Under the pieces are notes generated by a model, which saw nothing but the letters and a program-made list of their open reading frames with translations, did no database searches and was not told the origin of the DNA. Below are positions 13,111-40,758 of a stretch of 57,839 nt of DNA, piece after piece; the first letter of the stretch is position 1; every line of letters begins with the position of its first letter. The stretch spans positions 89,640-147,478 of the forward strand of contig WFXI01000320.1 in assembly GCA_015490675.1 (NCBI GenBank), read 5' to 3'. This DNA is from Hydrogenothermaceae bacterium. GTDB taxonomy: Bacteria; Aquificota; Aquificia; Aquificales; Hydrogenothermaceae. A program made the translations under genes and the position numbers.

Positions 13111-15195
13111 ATGGATAATGAAAGAACCATTTTAGAAAATACCATTAAAAAAACAATATTTGAAGATGAAAGAACAGTTTTGGAAAATTTTAACGATAAA
13201 ACTATTATTGAAAACCTAAATAATCTAAATAATAATGAAAAAACAATAATAGAAAAAAACACCAATAAACCTCTTACCGAAAAATTAAACAACTTTAAGA
13301 AAAATAAAATAATAAAAGAATTCCCTGCTCTTGGGTCAGAAGCTGATATTTACCTTTTGGAAAATGGCTTTATACTAAAATTATATAGAAAAGGAATTAC
13401 TATAAACGAAGAAATTTTAATAAAAATAAAAAAACTTTCAGAAAAAAATCCATACATTATAAGAGTTATTGATTTTGGATTTGATAGAGAAAAAAACAGA
13501 TACTATGAGATAATGGAATACGCTAAATATGGATCTGTTGGTGATTTCTTTATAGAATCCCCAGCAAACAAAACACAAATAAAAACATTAGTATCACAGA
13601 TAAATGAAGCTCTTAAATATATACACCAAGAAGGAATAATTCATAGGGATTTAAAACCTACAAATATACTTGTTAAAAGTGTAAATCCATTAATATTTGC
13701 AATAAGTGATTTTGGAATATCATCTGTCTTAGATAATAATGCTACAAAGAAATTGACACAAATAAAAGGTACACCTGTATATTCTGCTCCTGAAAGCTTT
13801 ACAGGAATTATAGGACAAGAAGTAGATTATTGGTCTTTAGGAATGATAATTCTAGAAATTCTACATAAAAATCCTTTTAAAGGGTTAAATCCTCAAACAA
13901 TAATGTTTAAAATAACTTCTGAATCTGTTGAAATAAGTAAAGATATAGATGATGATGTAAAAACACTTTTACAAGGACTTTTAACTCAAAACAGAAAATA
14001 CAGATGGGGTTACAGTCAAGTTAAAAACTGGTTAGAGGGAAAAGAAGAGAAAGTTTATTATTCTTTCAAAGAAAGCAAAAATGTAACCAAGTATAATTTT
14101 CTTGGTAAAAAATTTAATACACTTGAAGAATTAATAAAAGAAGCTACAAAAGACAAAGATACCTTCCAAAAATTTATAACATTTGTAAAAAGAGGATATA
14201 TTAATCAACAATTAATGGAAAATGGTGAAGTAGAACTTGATCTACAACTTTCAGAAATTATAGAAGAAGAATCATCAAATATATTACTTGGAGTTGCTGT
14301 TATAAAACTTTTTGCACCAAATTTAATTCCTAAAATATATGGAATAAGTTTTGATGCTTTAAATTTACTCAGAATACTTTATAAAGGAAAGAATAAAAAA
14401 TCACTAACAAATGAAGAAAATCAAATATACTATATTTTAAACTCTTACCATAAAAGAGAAAAACTATTTAAATATCTTAAAGATAAAAAATTAGAGGAAT
14501 CTTTTAAAATATACTCTGATATTAAAAAGAAAACAAATAATGAGCTCTTCTCAATAAGAGTTACAGCAAATTATATAAATCCTGAAAACATAATGCCTAC
14601 TAATTATAAAGAAGCAATAGAAGAAAACCTTGTAGAAATACTCATAACTCCTATAACAAAAAAACAATTAAATCTTTTAAACAATACTTTAGAAAAATTA
14701 GAATTTGACAAAATAGAAGAAACCTTAATTAAAAATCTTGATATTGAAGAATTTAAACTAGTTAGAGATGCTCTAAGGAACATACCTGAAAATGTAAACA
14801 ATCAAGATATAGAAAAAACTATAAAAAAAATAGAAGAAATATTTGAAAACAATGAAAAAAACTTAGTTCCAAAAGAAATTAAAAACTTACTTTACACAGG
14901 ATACGAGGAATTACATAAGTTAGTGGAAGATATATCTGCACTTTTAAAAATAAGTCAAAATATAAAAACATTAGATAAGATAGAAAAAAAAGAATTCAAC
15001 AATATACAGAATATTTATAGAACATTATATATAGATAAAGACTATCTAATACCATCTGAAGCAAAGTATATCTTAAATTTTGATGTAGAAAATATATCAT
15101 TAAAGGATTGGGAATATGTGATAACAGATTTTAAAATCGCAAAAAATTTCTATATAGAAAACAAAAAAGAAATAGACGAACTAATAGGAAGTTAA
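13111..15195 (+). CDS. Hanks-type Ser/Thr protein kinase with N-terminal TIxE repeats and long C-terminal region
   Basis: IIHRDLKPTNILVK, ISDFGISSVL, GTPVYSAPES, DYWSLGMIILEIL. Confidence 0.95.
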   Translation: MDNERTILENTIKKTIFEDERTVLENFNDKTIIENLNNLNNNEKTIIEKNTNKPLTEKLNNFKKNKIIKEFPALGSEADIYLLENGFILKLYRKGITINEEILIKIKKLSEKNPYIIRVIDFGFDREKNRYYEIMEYAKYGSVGDFFIESPANKTQIKTLVSQINEALKYIHQEGIIHRDLKPTNILVKSVNPLIFAISDFGISSVLDNNATKKLTQIKGTPVYSAPESFTGIIGQEVDYWSLGMIILEILHKNPFKGLNPQTIMFKITSESVEISKDIDDDVKTLLQGLLTQNRKYRWGYSQVKNWLEGKEEKVYYSFKESKNVTKYNFLGKKFNTLEELIKEATKDKDTFQKFITFVKRGYINQQLMENGEVELDLQLSEIIEEESSNILLGVAVIKLFAPNLIPKIYGISFDALNLLRILYKGKNKKSLTNEENQIYYILNSYHKREKLFKYLKDKKLEESFKIYSDIKKKTNNELFSIRVTANYINPENIMPTNYKEAIEENLVEILITPITKKQLNLLNNTLEKLEFDKIEETLIKNLDIEEFKLVRDALRNIPENVNNQDIEKTIKKIEEIFENNEKNLVPKEIKNLLYTGYEELHKLVEDISALLKISQNIKTLDKIEKKEFNNIQNIYRTLYIDKDYLIPSEAKYILNFDVENISLKDWEYVITDFKIAKNFYIENKKEIDELIGS

Positions 15196-15197
15196 TA

Positions 15198-15863
15198 ATG
15201 AAAGCTATATACTATACTAATAAGGGAAAAATAAGAAATATAAATCAAGATTGCTTACTTATAGAAGATATAGTGCAAGGCAATATGAATACCTATAAAA
15301 CTTCAAATAATGTAAGGAATTTTGTAGCAGTTGCAGATGGAGTAGGAGGAGCTCCTTCTGGTGAACTCGCATCAAAAACTGTATTACAAACCTTAAAAGA
15401 AAACGAAAATTCTTCAATAAAAGATGCAATAATAAAAGCAAAAAATAAAATAAAACAAATAGAAGAAATTCATCCACAAAATAAAGGAATGGCTACTACA
15501 TTATCAGGTATTTCATTAAAAGAAAGTATTGTATTCAATAGTGGAGATTCTAGAGTTTATAAAAAAAAGGAAAAGAATTTATGGCAGTTAACTTATGATC
15601 AAATTGATAAATATACAAATGCTTTGACATCAGCTATAACTTCAAATGTAAATGAAAAAGAAATTCAAATGAAAAAAATTAAAATTAATAAAGGTGACAT
15701 ATTTTTCTTATGTACAGATGGAATTTGGAAAGAATTTGATATTGAAGAACTAGAGGAATATTTTTTTATAGGTGACATTGAAACAGCTGCAGACCAAATA
15801 ATTCAAAAATTAAAAGTTAAAGAGCAAAAAGATAATGTTTCATTTATTATTCTAAAAATATAA
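15198..15863 (+). CDS. PP2C-family Ser/Thr protein phosphatase
   Basis: VADGVGGAPSGELAS, FNSGDSRVY, FLCTDGIWKEF, KDNVSFIIL. Confidence 0.93.
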   Translation: MKAIYYTNKGKIRNINQDCLLIEDIVQGNMNTYKTSNNVRNFVAVADGVGGAPSGELASKTVLQTLKENENSSIKDAIIKAKNKIKQIEEIHPQNKGMATTLSGISLKESIVFNSGDSRVYKKKEKNLWQLTYDQIDKYTNALTSAITSNVNEKEIQMKKIKINKGDIFFLCTDGIWKEFDIEELEEYFFIGDIETAADQIIQKLKVKEQKDNVSFIILKI

Positions 15864-15875
15864 GGGGATAAAAAA

Positions 15876-17042
15876 TTGAGTTCAATTATAATATCAGACT
15901 ATAACCCTCCATCCCAGGATTATAGATTAATATCTATATTAAGAAATATAATCTTAGATAAAGAACTGAAATGTAATGAGACTCTAAAAGAACTTAAATT
16001 AAAAGCAAAAAAAAACAACCTTAAAAAAGAATTGATACAAATAATTAATAAAGAAAAGCAAATAAATGAAAAATTAAGATATTACAAAAAAGAGTTGGGA
16101 AATAATATAAAAATATATGGAAAAGTTAACTTTAAAAAAGTTGAAAAAGAAATAAATAAATTAATTGAAGATTTTTTCGAATTTGTAGATGATGCAGAAT
16201 CTAAAATAAACAAAGAAATGAAAAAAATAAAGCTTTCAAAAGAAATAGAAAAAAGTTTTGAACAAATTGAAAAAAGTCTAAAAGAAACAAAAACTGTAGA
16301 AAAAAGACACAAAGAAGAGAACAAAATTACCGAAGAAAATCTACTCAAAATATCTAAGATAAAAAATATACCGTTAGAGGTCCTTAAAACATACCCAAAA
16401 GAAAGTATAAAGAACCTATTAGAAGAAACAAATCTTATCTTAAATAAACAAAAAGAAGAAAAAAGAAATACAAACTTATATAAATCTTATTTAAAAATAT
16501 TTATGAAAAACATAAGTAATGAAACTTTAAAAAACAAAATTCAAAAAACACTTGATAAAGACATAATAAATAAAAATGAATTTGAAGAACTAAAAGAAGA
16601 AATATTAACATTAATGGAAAATGAAACTACTAAAAAACAAGAAGAAGAAGTTAAAGAAGAAGTAATAAACCAACTACTTCTTAAAGGCTATATTATTGAA
16701 AATGAAAATAACCAAATCCTTTATATAGATACAGATGATATAAATTACAAAATAATGATGAAAATAAAGAATGGAAAGATAACATCCAAATTTGTAAAGT
16801 TAGTCGATAAAGAAAACTATAAACCTTCTGAATATGAAAGAATAAAAGATACAGAAAAAATGAAAAAATGGTGTAGTGATTTTGAACAAATAAAAGAACG
16901 ATTAAAAGAAAAAGGTATAGTGATAAAAAATAAAAAGACCATCTATGAACTTGAAGAAGGTATAAATTACGTTTATGCCCAGGAAGTTAAAAAAATAAAT
17001 GAAGAAAAAGGAAATAAAAATGCAATGGGTAAAAGAGCTTGA
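15876..17042 (+). CDS. coiled-coil rich protein, unknown function
   Basis: K/E-rich heptad-like sequence; TTG start after AAGGGGA; overlaps next gene. Confidence 0.6.
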   Translation: MSSIIISDYNPPSQDYRLISILRNIILDKELKCNETLKELKLKAKKNNLKKELIQIINKEKQINEKLRYYKKELGNNIKIYGKVNFKKVEKEINKLIEDFFEFVDDAESKINKEMKKIKLSKEIEKSFEQIEKSLKETKTVEKRHKEENKITEENLLKISKIKNIPLEVLKTYPKESIKNLLEETNLILNKQKEEKRNTNLYKSYLKIFMKNISNETLKNKIQKTLDKDIINKNEFEELKEEILTLMENETTKKQEEEVKEEVINQLLLKGYIIENENNQILYIDTDDINYKIMMKIKNGKITSKFVKLVDKENYKPSEYERIKDTEKMKKWCSDFEQIKERLKEKGIVIKNKKTIYELEEGINYVYAQEVKKINEEKGNKNAMGKRA

Positions 17043-18741
17043 CTTATTTCTAACTCAAAATTCCAACTTCCTAATATCAGGAAATATATACGATAGCTAC
17101 TTTTATGAAAACACACCACTAAATCTTACAGATTTTTTAGGAAGATGGCTTGTGGAAAAACAAGGATATTCTCAAGTAATATCTTATATACCATTATCTG
17201 GGTTTTTCCATGTATATGGAAATGAAAATATATTTGATGAAGCTGTAGGAGAAAAAATATTAAACAAGGATAGAAAAGCTACTTTGGAAAGTGATTATGA
17301 AGTCATAAGAAAATACATAAAAAATGATAAATATCCTGTAGCCCTGATTGTAAATTTTGCATCCAGAATTGAAGAATTATCTAGTGAAGATTTTAGAACA
17401 TTCTTATTTAAAATATTTAAAGATGCTATAGATCCAAAAACAAAAAAAGTAAAATCTGAAAAGGGAACAAAATATAATTTAATTTTTCACCTTTTGGATA
17501 AAGAAGGAGACTTCCCTTCATGGTTCTATATAGATAAACCTAAAATAAAATCAATCCTAATTCAAAAACCTGATATTTTAGTTAGAAAAGAAGCTATAAA
17601 GAAAATTCTTCAAGCATTTTCTAAAAATGATGACAACCTTGTCAATGAAATAACGGATAAAACTCATGGTATGTATATAAGGGAAATAATAAGTGTCTTT
17701 CAGATAGCAAAACAAAATAATATAAAACCAGAAAACATATCTCAGGCTATAAGAACTTATAAAACAGGAATAAAAGAAAATCCTTGGGAAAACATTGAAA
17801 AAGAAAAGATAAAAAACATCGAAAAATTAATAAAAGAAAGAGTCAAAGGACAGGATGAAGCAGTAAAAAAAGCATCTATAATAATTAAAAGGGCATTTTT
17901 TAACCTTTCAGGTTCTCAATTCTCAACATTTTCTCAAAGACCAAAAGGAGTTTTATTTTTTGCAGGACCTACAGGAGTTGGTAAAACAGAACTTGCCAAA
18001 ACAATAGCCCAAATAATATTTGGAAGTGAAGATGCAATGATTAGATTTGACATGTCAGAGTTTAGACACGATCATTCAGACCAAAGACTTCTTGGAGCTC
18101 CTCCAGGGTATATCGGTTATGAACAAGGAGGGGAACTTATAAATAAAATAAGGGAAAATCCTTTTTCTGTAGTTTTATTTGATGAAATAGAAAAAGCACA
18201 TCCAAGGGTAATGGATATAATGCTACAACTCTTAGATGAAGGAGTTTTAACTTCAGGAAGGGGAGAAAAAGCTTACTTTTCTGAAAGCATAATAATATTT
18301 ACTTCAAATCTTGGAGCTTCTCAAATGACAATTACTAACGGATACGAAAAAAACAAGAAAATAGCAAATGAATACATTGAAAGATACTTTAAAGAAGAAC
18401 TAAGAAGACCAGAAATCTTAAATAGAATTGGTAAAAATATAGTAGTGTTTAATTTTATAGAAAAAGATGATGCTAAAGAAATAGCAAAATCTATGATAGC
18501 AAAAGTTCTTAAAAAGCTTGAAAAGGATAAGAATATAAAAATAGAAATTAAAAATATTGATGATATTCTTGATACTGTAACAGTTGACTTATCAATGGGA
18601 GGAAGAGGAATAGGTAACTCTATTGAAGAAATGTTTGTTAACCCTATTTCCCAGCTTCTTTTTGAACAGGATGTAGAACCAGAAAGCAGCATAAAACTAT
18701 ACATAGATGATGGTAAATTAAATTTGGAGAAATTAAATTGA
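17020..18741 (+). CDS. AAA+ ATPase with ClpA/ClpB D2-like module and divergent N-terminal domain
   Basis: GPTGVGKTELAKTIAQIIFG, FDMSEFRHDHSDQRLLGAPPGYIGYEQGGELINKIRENPFSVVLFDEIEKAHP, TSNLGA; internal ATG 17020 preferred. Confidence 0.93.
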   Translation: MQWVKELDLFLTQNSNFLISGNIYDSYFYENTPLNLTDFLGRWLVEKQGYSQVISYIPLSGFFHVYGNENIFDEAVGEKILNKDRKATLESDYEVIRKYIKNDKYPVALIVNFASRIEELSSEDFRTFLFKIFKDAIDPKTKKVKSEKGTKYNLIFHLLDKEGDFPSWFYIDKPKIKSILIQKPDILVRKEAIKKILQAFSKNDDNLVNEITDKTHGMYIREIISVFQIAKQNNIKPENISQAIRTYKTGIKENPWENIEKEKIKNIEKLIKERVKGQDEAVKKASIIIKRAFFNLSGSQFSTFSQRPKGVLFFAGPTGVGKTELAKTIAQIIFGSEDAMIRFDMSEFRHDHSDQRLLGAPPGYIGYEQGGELINKIRENPFSVVLFDEIEKAHPRVMDIMLQLLDEGVLTSGRGEKAYFSESIIIFTSNLGASQMTITNGYEKNKKIANEYIERYFKEELRRPEILNRIGKNIVVFNFIEKDDAKEIAKSMIAKVLKKLEKDKNIKIEIKNIDDILDTVTVDLSMGGRGIGNSIEEMFVNPISQLLFEQDVEPESSIKLYIDDGKLNLEKLN

Positions 18742-19265
18742 AAGTTTACATAAACTGCATTTTACATCCTATAAAAACACTTGGACCGGGAAAAAGAGTC
18801 GGAATATGGTTTCAAGGTTGTGATATTAAATGCAAAGGATGTATGTCTAAACATACATGGGAATTAAAAGATGAGTTTCTAACAACAACTGATAAAGTTT
18901 TAAGAAAAGTAAAAGAATCAGGTTTAGATAAAGTAACAATATCTGGAGGAGAGCCTTTTCAGCAAGCAAATGCTCTAAAAAATATACTTGAAGGTCTAAA
19001 AGAACTCGGCATTGAAGATATTATAATTTACTCAGGTATGAAAAAAGAACAAATACTTAAAAAGTATAAATGGATAAAAGATTTATGTTCCTTATTAATT
19101 AGTGAACCTTTTGTAGAAGATAAACCTTCTAATATGATATGGAAAGGATCAGAAAACCAACAGGCTACTATTTTTAAAAATGAAAGTTATTACAAAAATT
19201 GGTTAAATAAAGAAAAAGATAAAAAAGTTCAAATAATTGGAAATCTAATAGTGGGGATTATGTGA
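18738..19265 (+). CDS. NrdG/anaerobic activase-like radical SAM protein
   Basis: GIWFQGCDIKCKGCMSKHTW (CxxxCxxC), TISGGEPFQQ; 4-nt overlap with AAA+ gene. Confidence 0.88.
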   Translation: MKVYINCILHPIKTLGPGKRVGIWFQGCDIKCKGCMSKHTWELKDEFLTTTDKVLRKVKESGLDKVTISGGEPFQQANALKNILEGLKELGIEDIIIYSGMKKEQILKKYKWIKDLCSLLISEPFVEDKPSNMIWKGSENQQATIFKNESYYKNWLNKEKDKKVQIIGNLIVGIM

Positions 19266-19672
19266 TGTTTAAGATATGTCCATCTTGCGGGGGAAAAAAC
19301 CCAGAAAGTGCAATAATATGCTCAAATTGTATAGAAGATATATCAAGTGTAACTCCTCAAGAAGAAAATAATGAGAATAAACCTACAGCACTAGTTATCT
19401 TTGAAGGAAAAGAATATAAAATTGAATCTCCTTGCATAATTGGAAGAAATGAATTTTTAAAGGAAATTTTATCAGAATATAAAACAATTTCAAGAAAACA
19501 CTTAAAAATATATTTTGAAGAAGGTTCTTGGTTTATTGAAGATTTAAACTCAACAAATGGAACCTTCTTAAATGGAGAACCTATAAAAAATAAACATATA
19601 TTAAAAAATGAAGATGTAATAGGTCTCGGCCAGACTCATAAACTTATTTTTATATTAAATAAACCCATTTAA
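19262..19672 (+). CDS. zinc-ribbon plus FHA-domain protein
   Basis: CPSCGGKNPESAIICSNC; CIIGRNE...ISRKHLKIYFEEGSWFIEDLNSTNGTFLNG. Confidence 0.95.
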   Translation: MMFKICPSCGGKNPESAIICSNCIEDISSVTPQEENNENKPTALVIFEGKEYKIESPCIIGRNEFLKEILSEYKTISRKHLKIYFEEGSWFIEDLNSTNGTFLNGEPIKNKHILKNEDVIGLGQTHKLIFILNKPI

Positions 19673-19993: not shown

Positions 19994-20530
19994 TCAAGAA
20001 ATCTTCTCAAAAAATCTAAATCTTCGGCCCTCTACACTCTTATAAAGGGCATAAAGATCCTTAAACTCTTCAATAATTTCCTTTAATTTTTCAAAATCTT
20101 TAATCTTAGGAACTCTTGTCTTAGCCTTAACCAAAGCTCCCTTTTTCGGGTTTAAAGATACAACAACCCTTTCTTTGCCATAATTTTTGTCAAAATACCT
20201 ATTAGCAGTTATATAATATTGGTCCAAATCTGGAATATCAAGTATATTAAGAATTTTCTTTAATTTTATTAATTCATCTTCTAAATCTTCTCTTGTTATA
20301 TAAGAAATCCCTATCATGAAACCAATAAAAAAATTATACTCATCATATATAGAACTAAAATTAGGAAATTCTATATAATCACTTAAAATTCTTTTCATAT
20401 CTTCTACATTATCAGAATGTTTTCTAAGATTTATAAGTATTATTCTTCTATCCTTTAAAGATAATTTCTTAGCAAAAAGAAAGCCTTTTTTAAACATACT
20501 TGACAGTCCCATATCTCTATAATACTGCAA
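19994..20530 (-). CDS. hypothetical protein, 178 aa
   Basis: ORF of plausible composition with no overlapping plus-strand gene; weak RBS. Confidence 0.55.
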   Translation of the reverse strand: MQYYRDMGLSSMFKKGFLFAKKLSLKDRRIILINLRKHSDNVEDMKRILSDYIEFPNFSSIYDEYNFFIGFMIGISYITREDLEDELIKLKKILNILDIPDLDQYYITANRYFDKNYGKERVVVSLNPKKGALVKAKTRVPKIKDFEKLKEIIEEFKDLYALYKSVEGRRFRFFEKIS

Positions 20531-20565: not shown

Positions 20566-20620
20566 TTGACTTTAAAAAGAAAGAAACTTATTATGAAATT
20601 ATGACATCATAAATTCATAA
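20566..20620 (+). promoter_or_regulatory. sigma-70 promoter (TTGACT-17-TATTAT) overlapped by a 30-bp operator with four 8-bp-phased TTATGA/TCATAA half-sites
   Basis: -35 20566-20571, -10 20589-20594; half-sites start at 20591, 20599, 20607, 20615. Confidence 0.65.
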
Positions 20621-20640
20621 AGTTATTTAGTAAAAGAAAA

Positions 20641-20817
20641 TTGAAAGATAAAAAAATAATTCAATTATCAATAAGAATAGATAAAAAGACTTTAGACCAA
20701 TACAAAATTTGGTTAATAAAAAATGGATATAGAAGTATAAACCAACATATAAATGAAATAATAAAAGAAATAATAGAAAAAGAAAATAATGAAAAACATA
20801 ATAGACCTAAAAAATAA
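20641..20817 (+). CDS. ribbon-helix-helix (CopG/Arc-like) DNA-binding protein, 58 aa, TTG start
   Basis: MKDKKIIQLSIRIDKKTLDQYKIWLIKNGYRSINQHINEIIKEIIEKENNEKHNRPKK; not in ORF track. Confidence 0.65.
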   Translation: MKDKKIIQLSIRIDKKTLDQYKIWLIKNGYRSINQHINEIIKEIIEKENNEKHNRPKK

Positions 20818-21160
20818 ATATTTAAGGAAAATTAGAAAAGGAGCTAGTCTCTGTATAAGAGAAAAGTACCTATATCTTTTTGAAGATGAAGAACTAGTAT
20901 ACAAAACATCCTTTTCACTACACAAGTACTATAAAAATGGAAAATATATGACATATCAATTAGAAGCATCTATAGAGGGAAAAGGTTTAATAATATCTAG
21001 TCTTCAAAGTTCAAAAGGTAGATCTAATCTATACACTCTGTACAAATTAATAAAAAATTTTAAAGAAATAAAACACATAATAGAAACAATAGAAAATTTA
21101 AAGGAATATGAAAAGACACTAGAACAAGCAAAATTTATAAAACCTAAATCAAAAAGATAG
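20789..21160 (+). CDS. hypothetical protein, 123 aa
   Basis: ORF overlapping the 3' end of the RHH ORF by 29 nt. Confidence 0.5.
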   Translation: MKNIIDLKNKYLRKIRKGASLCIREKYLYLFEDEELVYKTSFSLHKYYKNGKYMTYQLEASIEGKGLIISSLQSSKGRSNLYTLYKLIKNFKEIKHIIETIENLKEYEKTLEQAKFIKPKSKR

Positions 21161-22012: not shown

Positions 22013-22360
22013 ATGAGTCACACTTCAGAAATTGATCTTCAATTAAAAGATAAAAAAACACTTATAAAAGTTCTAAACAAACTAAATATTAGTTATTCAG
22101 AAGGAGTCCATAAACTATTTTCAACTACTGAAAAAGGATTAGGAATAAATTTGCCAGGATGGAAATATCCAGCAGTAATAAAAGACGATGGAAGTGTAGC
22201 ATTTGATAATTATAATGGAAAATGGGGAAAAATAGAAGAACTTAATAAAGTCAAAGCACATTACACTGCAGAAATAGCAAAAAAAGAAATGAAGAAAAAA
22301 GGATATAAATGCATAGAAAAAGAAATAAACGGAAAAATACAAATAAGATTTATAAAGTAA
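22013..22360 (+). CDS. DUF1257 (Ycf35-like) protein
   Basis: MSHTSEIDLQLKDKKTLIKVLNKLNISY start and GYKCIEKEINGKIQIRF end match the Ycf35/DUF1257 pattern. Confidence 0.7.
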   Translation: MSHTSEIDLQLKDKKTLIKVLNKLNISYSEGVHKLFSTTEKGLGINLPGWKYPAVIKDDGSVAFDNYNGKWGKIEELNKVKAHYTAEIAKKEMKKKGYKCIEKEINGKIQIRFIK

Positions 22361-22381: not shown

Positions 22382-22576
22382 ATGAAAGAAATAAAAATTG
22401 AAATAGATTTAAATACAGGAGAGACTTATATAGAAACTTCTGGATTTAAAGGAAACGAATGCTTTATAGAAACAAAAAACTTAAAAAACAAATTAGGTAA
22501 TATTAAAAAGGAAATAAAAAAAGAAGAATTCTACAAAAAAACAAAAACAGAAAATAAAATAAAAAGAGGTTTATAA
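22382..22576 (+). CDS. DUF2997-like small protein
   Basis: IKIEIDLNTGETYIETSGFKGNECFIETKNLKNKLG. Confidence 0.6.
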   Translation: MKEIKIEIDLNTGETYIETSGFKGNECFIETKNLKNKLGNIKKEIKKEEFYKKTKTENKIKRGL

Positions 22577-22888
22577 ATGATAATAGAAATAGATAAAACA
22601 GGAAAAGCATATGGTTTAGATGAAGATTTAAAAGAAATCTTTAACGAAGAAGATTTCTCTACTACAAATAAAAAGAGATTTTCCTATATATACCCGAAAA
22701 ATATATTGCTAAGAGCAATATTTAAATTCATAAGAAAAATTTTCTCAGATGAAAGTAAATTAGCAAATTGGACAAGATCTTGGAAATGTGAATGGATTGT
22801 TTTAATAAATAAAAAAGTTTATGGACCTTTCAAGACAAGAAAAAAAGCCATCGAGTTTGAGAAAACTATGTTTTACTCCTCTCTCTAA
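22577..22888 (+). CDS. hypothetical protein, 103 aa
   Basis: ORF abutting the DUF2997-like gene, RBS AAAGAGG. Confidence 0.6.
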   Translation: MIIEIDKTGKAYGLDEDLKEIFNEEDFSTTNKKRFSYIYPKNILLRAIFKFIRKIFSDESKLANWTRSWKCEWIVLINKKVYGPFKTRKKAIEFEKTMFYSSL

Positions 22889-38754: not shown

Positions 38755-39720
38755 TTAAAGCTCCTTTTTCAAATATTTTGAAATAATGTTTTCTATTTCT
38801 TTTAATTTATTGTTAACAAGTTCTTTATCCTCGTCTGATAACCTATTATAAACACTAGATAACCTTCTACTAATAGAAGAAAAAGAAACTTTTCCATTTT
38901 CATTTAGAATTTCTGAAACTCTCTTTTTTATAAAAGCATATCCATAATGATTTTGCTCAGCCTCTTTTATTAAAGTTTCTAACTCTTTTATTTTCTTTTT
39001 CTTTGCAAGTTTATTAAGTTCTAAAGCTATCGTATAACTCCAGTTATTTCTTCTAACAGCATCTTTTATTAATGGATGTATATTAAGCAATTTTAATTTA
39101 TCTATAAAAGTTCTTAGAGACTTTCCAGTTATTGCTTTTATTAAGTTTTCTAATTTTATAGCCTCTTCCTTCTCCTCTTCCGATAAATTCCTTACATTCC
39201 CTAGCTTATAATTATTAACTCTTAATATAAACTTTATTGTATCTTCTAAAGACTCTTTCTTGAAAACAAATTGAAGATATTGAACTTGTGAATACACTTT
39301 ATCGTAATCATTTAAATTTTCCCTTTGAATGTTTTCTGAAAGCATTAAAGCTAGAGCTGTATCTTTTGATACATCTAATAAAACCACAGCAGGTATTTTA
39401 TCCCTTCCTAAATATTCAAAAGCTTTTATCCTTCTAAATCCAATAATTCTTTCATATCTACCATTTTCTTTTTTCCTAACAACAATTGGATGAGCAAGTC
39501 CATATATCTTTATGTTTTCTGCAAGCTCAACAATTTTTTCTTTTGAATAAAAGGATCTATCATGAAATGGCGGATTATCTATTAAATCTATAGGAATTTC
39601 TTTAACTTCATAAGTTAAATTTTCAATTTCTTCTTTTAGGTTTTCATCAAAATCCAAATCTGTAAAATTAAAGTTGTTAACTATTAGACTTTTACTTTTT
39701 TTCATCATCAAATCCTCCAT
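38755..39720 (-). CDS. parB: ParB-family partition protein
   Basis: IPIDLIDNPPFHDRSFYSKEKIVELAENIKIYGLAHPIVVRKKENGRYERIIGFRRIKAFEYLG; LSENIQRENLNDYDK. Confidence 0.92.
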   Translation of the reverse strand: MEDLMMKKSKSLIVNNFNFTDLDFDENLKEEIENLTYEVKEIPIDLIDNPPFHDRSFYSKEKIVELAENIKIYGLAHPIVVRKKENGRYERIIGFRRIKAFEYLGRDKIPAVVLLDVSKDTALALMLSENIQRENLNDYDKVYSQVQYLQFVFKKESLEDTIKFILRVNNYKLGNVRNLSEEEKEEAIKLENLIKAITGKSLRTFIDKLKLLNIHPLIKDAVRRNNWSYTIALELNKLAKKKKIKELETLIKEAEQNHYGYAFIKKRVSEILNENGKVSFSSISRRLSSVYNRLSDEDKELVNNKLKEIENIISKYLKKEL

Positions 39721-39721
39721 C

Positions 39722-39739
39722 TAAGCGAAATTTCGCTTA
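39722..39739. promoter_or_regulatory. parS-like palindrome copy 1
   Basis: TAAGCGAAATTTCGCTTA, 18-bp perfect palindrome overlapping the parA stop, upstream of parB. Confidence 0.7.
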
Positions 39740-40603
39740 ATTATTAATTGTTTGTATTAAACCTGCTCTTTTTAAAACTTCATCCCCTATTTGCTTCAAA
39801 AGGAGCAGTAAATCTTTACTATATGTTTCGTATTTTTCGATGTAATCATGAATCAACATTTGATTTGCAGCTGCTTTTGCCCAAACAGTCCTTCTGTAAA
39901 GCTCTGGCAAAAATATTTCTTCTGGAGGTGCAGATAATTTTAAAAATGGAACCTTTCTTAATAATCCAGGTAAAGATAATTTTAAATCTGCATATCTTTC
40001 TAAAGGTTCTTTAGCTCTTTTATCAAAGTCTACCGCTATAAAACCAAGTAAAGAAAGATCTTTTAACCTAAAATGTTTTATATTTTGAATAAGTGTTTCA
40101 ATAGTTAATAAAGTTCCTGTCTCATCAAGTAAAGTCGGTCTTATTGGAATCAACACATAATCACTTGCAACTTCTACAGAAGTTTCAAGAGTTCCTCCAC
40201 CACCTTCTGAGTCTATAATAACTATGTCAAACTCATCAGCTACTCCCCTTGTTTCTCCAAAAAATTCATCTCCTTTTAAAAAATTTCTTAAGTAATATTC
40301 CCTACCCCTTTTACCACTTTCAGCTTGTTCTTTTAAGTTTTTATTAGAAGGAATTAAATATAGGTTGTCTTTAATTTTTAAAGGTTTTACAGGCTTTTCT
40401 TCAAAAATATTACTTATATCATGTTCCGTACCGATATATTGATTGGCATTAAGTCCCATAAGATATGTTTGACTTGCCTGAGAATCAAAATCAATAACTA
40501 AAGTCTTTAATCCTCTCCTCGAAAATTCACTGGCTAAAGCATTCGATACGGTAGTCTTCCCTACACCACCTTTAGTATTGATTATTCCTAAAATAGTTCC
40601 CAT
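39737..40603 (-). CDS. parA: ParA-family partition ATPase
   Basis: TKGGVGKTTVSNALASEFSRRGLKTLVIDFDSQASQTYL; DIVIIDSEGGG. Confidence 0.95.
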   Translation of the reverse strand: MGTILGIINTKGGVGKTTVSNALASEFSRRGLKTLVIDFDSQASQTYLMGLNANQYIGTEHDISNIFEEKPVKPLKIKDNLYLIPSNKNLKEQAESGKRGREYYLRNFLKGDEFFGETRGVADEFDIVIIDSEGGGGTLETSVEVASDYVLIPIRPTLLDETGTLLTIETLIQNIKHFRLKDLSLLGFIAVDFDKRAKEPLERYADLKLSLPGLLRKVPFLKLSAPPEEIFLPELYRRTVWAKAAANQMLIHDYIEKYETYSKDLLLLLKQIGDEVLKRAGLIQTINN

Positions 40604-40681
40604 AACAGCCTCCTACTAACTAAATAGTTTGTATTATTTTTATTTCGACACATATATAAGATACTTTAATACAAATAAACC

Positions 40682-40709
40682 AAATCTAAGCGAAATTTCG
40701 CTTAGATTT
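40682..40709. promoter_or_regulatory. parS-like palindrome copy 2
   Basis: AAATCTAAGCGAAATTTCGCTTAGATTT, 28-bp perfect palindrome with the same core as 39722. Confidence 0.72.
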
Positions 40710-40758
40710 AATAAAAATTAAAAAGTTGAATTCTAAAATTTTTAAAGGGAGAAATAAG

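Follow-up and report, generated by a model that had tools for sequence, protein, structure and literature searches.

A probable autoregulated ribbon-helix-helix repressor with 8-bp-phased operator boxes, upstream of a sigma-factor gene on an Aquificota plasmid

A stretch of 57,839 nucleotides from a Hydrogenothermaceae bacterium (the window) contains a 58-aa open reading frame that begins with TTG and is preceded by a palindrome lying over its promoter. The locus raises the question of whether these two are a ribbon-helix-helix (RHH) repressor and its operator, and whether a sigma factor encoded further along the same strand is held under their control. C320, the 147-kb contig that contains the window, comes from a draft genome of 2.38 Mb and is a large Aquificota plasmid: it encodes a Rep protein resembling RPA/TrfA/RepM (1654-2715) as well as ParA and ParB (38755-40603), and it has extensive gene-by-gene similarity to G018:C2, the 164-kb second contig of a two-contig relative, called the related plasmid below. 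The coordinates of the locus are collected in Table 1.

Table 1. Features of the candidate repressor locus and of the gene run that follows it, in window positions.
Feature	Position	Strand	Description
Divergent neighbour	19994-20530	-	weak YfjL-like C-terminal domain; same place on related plasmid
Sigma-70-like promoter	20566-20594	+	TTGACT 20566-20571, 17 bp, TATTAT 20589-20594; 10/12 consensus
Predicted operator	20591-20620	.	four TTATGA/TCATAA half-sites, 8 bp apart, two per strand
58-aa ribbon-helix-helix protein	20641-20817	+	TTG start; homologs, profile and structure matches
123-aa protein, unknown function	20789-21160	+	overlaps end of RHH gene by 29 nt; counterpart on related plasmid
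Sigma-70-family factor, 254 aa	21201-21965	+	regions 2 and 4; plasmid-borne
115-aa protein	22013-22360	+	weak DUF1257 resemblance; 53% identical counterpart directly after sigma on related plasmid
64-aa DUF2997 protein	22382-22576	+	
103-aa protein	22577-22888	+	last gene of run; ~46% identity relatives, enterobacterial and Vibrio plasmids

The predicted operator reads TTATGAAATTATGACATCATAAATTCATAA and follows the pattern TTATGA-N2-TTATGA-N2-TCATAA-N2-TCATAA. Its hexamers start at 20591, 20599, 20607 and 20615, which confirms from the sequence the four symmetric, 8-bp-spaced half-sites of the original prediction, and the dyad lies between 20605 and 20606. The site can also be parsed as three contiguous 8-bp boxes, TGAAATTA, TGACATCA and TAAATTCA (20594-20617), flanked by TTA and TAA. 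The promoter element was found where it had been claimed; the half-sites had also been said to cover its -10, and they do overlap it, the extent being four of the six bases (the last four of TATTAT). A transcription start near 20601 is predicted from the position of the promoter. Reading the palindrome as an RNA stem-loop is disfavoured because the predicted transcript would begin mid-palindrome.

Taken singly, the palindrome, the 8-bp phase and the promoter match are not rare in DNA this AT-rich (24% GC). Palindromes of 13/15 arise in about 40% of simulated windows, the site's lag-8 score is reached by 6 of the 85 real upstream regions on the contig, its own included, and promoter-like matches are not above chance (25 found against 27.2 expected from shuffles). 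Combined at one spot, the three are singular. The full pattern has a single match in the 2.38-Mb draft genome, and a search of plasmid and chromosome for a second full operator found none. Nothing else in the window matches the pattern at three or fewer mismatches; one of 100 shuffles contains such a match. The 147-kb contig has 22 palindromes scoring 12/15 or better; at lag 8 the site reaches 17 of 22 matches, and its nearest competitor among them 12 of 22. An isolated TTATGAAGTCATAA at 17295 was considered as a further site; it lies inside a ClpB-like gene and was taken as chance.

The predicted operator and the TTG start codon are separated by 20 nt, with no good Shine-Dalgarno ahead of the TTG. 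In the alignment, other members of the RHH family begin with ATG at the residue matching this TTG, and the start is therefore supported. The claim that the open reading frame encodes a real RHH protein is supported as well, by independent tests on sequence and on a structure model. A predicted strand at about residues 6-13, with the pattern Q-x-S-x-R, is followed by helices at 15-27 and 33-53. Searched as a single sequence with phmmer, the protein matched the RHH domains of NikR over residues 6-56 (E 7e-4); the NCBIfam NikR model matched positions 6-58 (E 1.2e-4), with a score of 22 against a cut-off of 119, and the family profile of the RHH homologs matches NikR too. PHROG Arc-like repressors were weak matches. 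Pfam gave nothing at E<1 for the 58-aa sequence alone, and one homolog matched its RHH_4 family at no better than E 0.039. AlphaFold2 modelled the monomer, in which the strand has no partner since it pairs only in the dimer, as two helices after an extended N-terminus (mean pLDDT 80). Foldseek found NikR as the best match to this model (prob 0.87), with ParD, VapB and AvtR also among the matches, all of them at E > 0.2. Seven residues are invariant in nine aligned members: M1, R12, W24, L25, I26, Y30 and S32.

Homologs of the protein were found in 13 other genomes in a search of 136 genomes of the phylum, and its named relatives come nearly all from Aquificales/Aquificota assemblies. They occupy about a dozen distinct loci. 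At no fewer than eight of these (L003, L041, L043, L054, L055, L059, L060 and L061) a tnpB-type gene, called from OrfB_IS605 and/or Cas12f1-like TNB domains at six loci and from N-terminal sequence match at the others, starts divergently beside the RHH gene across a short AT-rich gap, and several of the gaps contain 8-bp-phased repeats. Elsewhere the homolog sits in a TniB/TniQ transposon locus (L042), between a Piwi-domain gene upstream, which shares its strand, and an AAA gene downstream (L040:1456-3146), or, by sequence look only, near a ParA-like gene (L058). The homolog of genome G026 (L003:1501-1644) has an in-frame TGA at the invariant Trp codon W24, and this copy is either decayed or a sequence error. 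No relatives of the RHH protein, the sigma factor or the operator were found on viral contigs, and neither the RHH protein nor the divergent gene had a relative in a plasmid collection.

The 8-bp phase recurs upstream of these homologs. The 80 bp upstream of each gene were compared with dinucleotide-preserving shuffles, one median value was taken per family group, and lag 8 had been set beforehand by the original prediction. Across seven groups, a grouping that was the analyst's choice, the enrichment was confined to lag 8 (Fisher p 3e-5, or 3e-4 when the window is left out); at lags 5-7 and 9-14 there was none (all p > 0.5). The null was calibrated on 196 upstream regions of genes of this plasmid and the related plasmid and was near-uniform, with 2.0% of values below 0.01. 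Against it, the group result at lag 8 without the window has an empirical p = 2e-4, which supports the proposed tie between 8-bp phasing and the RHH protein. The best single case, L042, belongs to another class and reads TTATAGAA TTATAACA CTATGACA CTATAG; L041 has GAAATTATGA on the same strand and in the same phase as the window site, and groups L003 and L044 have no lag-8 signal. When homolog sites were aligned directly to the window site, similarity and significance were only modest, so the phasing test carries the argument.

The locus draws attention to an RHH family that is specific to this lineage and usually partnered by TnpB. A wider scenario may be sketched tentatively, in which RHH repressors of an Aquificota-specific family normally face TnpB nuclease genes in divergent orientation. 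Operators phased at 8 bp in the intervening gap would let a single small protein tune the RNA-guided nuclease as well as itself, and the plasmid might have acquired such a repressor-operator cassette and placed a sigma factor under it. We regard this scenario as possible rather than probable. The literature searched contained no paper describing RHH repressors of TnpB, a weak sign that the arrangement is new.

For the window itself, the analysis suggests that the 58-aa protein is quite probably an autoregulated repressor which acts cooperatively on the 8-bp boxes and damps a plasmid operon that includes the sigma factor. We infer binding, repression, promoter use and operon extent along the following lines. 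RHH dimers would place a two-stranded sheet in the major groove, with Q8, S10 and R12 facing the bases, and would sit side by side on TGAAATTA-TGACATCA-TAAATTCA. The bound dimers would exclude RNA polymerase because the boxes overlie the predicted start site and some of the -10. A rising concentration of RHH protein would close its own promoter, giving negative feedback, and the transcript with the RHH protein, the 123-aa protein and the sigma factor (perhaps reaching 22888) would be held low and steady.

As predicted, gene order confirms that the RHH frame heads a tight same-strand run containing the sigma factor, and the two genes are presumably co-transcribed. Whether this amounts to significant control of the sigma factor by the RHH protein is a closer call, and we lean slightly towards it. 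The related plasmid keeps the order of divergent gene, 123-aa counterpart (33% identity over 58 residues, E 3e-6), sigma factor (38%) and next gene (53%), and its gap at the sigma neighbourhood holds no RHH gene and no operator. RHH control of the sigma factor is therefore not essential; the cassette is an optional extra, and its gain or loss does not follow that of its would-be targets.

The same comparison speaks against one rival explanation, in which the RHH protein forms a type II toxin-antitoxin pair with the 123-aa protein whose gene overlaps its own, the operator serves toxin-antitoxin autoregulation, and the sigma factor is merely downstream: the 123-aa counterpart is present there without any RHH gene. 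The overlap of 29 nt would suit such a pair, and autoregulation by RHH antitoxins commonly works through multiple half-sites that span the -10 and the start, as with RelB on relO from -10 to +17 (PMC2812701). However, the 123-aa protein matched no toxin family, and relO is composed of 12-bp half-sites made of hexads (PMC2812701), versus 8-bp boxes here. We consider a toxin-antitoxin pair unlikely.

A second rival assigns the palindrome to a different regulator or to the host, with the RHH protein working at other sites, for instance as an accessory to transfer or partition like MobC, TrwA or ParG. The element is indeed a plasmid with ParA/ParB and Rep, and RHH proteins of plasmids frequently have a role in transfer and also repress their own gene, as does MobC of RA3 (PMC4175270); but no recognised relaxase or partition gene adjoins the RHH gene, and the plasmid has its own ParB, of the ParB_N type. 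The site has one copy in 2.38 Mb, and the 8-bp phasing accompanies the RHH family into transposons and unrelated loci, both of which count against an outside owner, and this assignment seems improbable to us. That site and reading frame are chance features of 24% GC DNA is the least credible explanation of all: a palindrome score or a lag-8 score is not rare by itself in this DNA, but the full combination is found only once, homologs show the phasing again, and for the reading frame the homologs with their seven invariant residues largely refute it.

Several other features of the plasmid were recorded alongside the locus. A 24-bp palindrome, TTTGATTATAAATTTATAATCAAA, occurs in the window at 961, 8639, 22889, 32787 and 45953 with 0-1 mismatch (expected 0.00); contig C320 has eight copies, the small contig C193 has one, and there are none elsewhere in the genome. 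Most copies occupy short gaps immediately ahead of gene starts, and the related plasmid has a distinct version, TTTGATTTCTAATTAGAAATCAAA, at about nine sites. The palindrome has the look of an operator, or a partition-type site, that is used across the plasmid and has evolved together with its reader, as KorB/KorA sites do. As a further instance of the operator at 20591-20620 it was rejected, since its sequence differs and it shows no clear 8-bp phase (8-12 of 22). Another palindrome, CAAATCTAAGCGAAATTTCGCTTAGATTTA (40681-40710), lies just upstream of the minus-strand parA and is a candidate parS or par operator. A cluster encoding a Ser/Thr kinase, a PP2C phosphatase, a ClpB-like AAA protein, a radical SAM activase-like protein and an FHA zinc-ribbon protein (13111-19672) is also on the related plasmid, and the relatives of the 103-aa protein are spread over 582 mostly conjugative enterobacterial and Vibrio plasmids.

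The preferred reading, an autoregulated RHH repressor, offers a compact, testable candidate repressor-operator pair from a thermophile, on a plasmid with its own sigma factor. Among known systems, NikR provides the best sequence and fold match through its N-terminal RHH domain, and its half-site TATGA (GTATGA-N16-TCATAC) resembles TTATGA. Unlike NikR, the 58-aa protein ends at the RHH domain, without the nickel-binding C-terminal domain, and the half-site spacing differs. Arc of phage P22 is of similar length and has Arc-like repressors among the weak PHROG matches; its strand residues are Q9-x-N11-x-R13, comparable to Q-x-S-x-R here, and its subsites are about 11 bp apart versus 8 here.

MetJ, to which the original prediction had compared the protein, binds tandem 8-bp metboxes and is autoregulated (PMC2775130). 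The comparison stands for the geometry, with predicted RHH dimers on adjacent 8-bp boxes and a likely autoregulation, and fails for family membership: the protein has 58 aa versus about 105, lacks the SAM-binding region and does not match the MetJ profile, its box is TGA-N2-TCA, and no further regulon sites were found. RelB and MobC repress their own promoters (PMC2812701, PMC4175270). Although no toxin or relaxase was recognised next to the 58-aa gene, the locus shares with RelB-relO, other RHH antitoxins and MobC of RA3 a small RHH protein and a palindrome over its own promoter, through which it would likewise repress itself. The candidate regulator belongs to an ordinary class; what is unusual is its setting.
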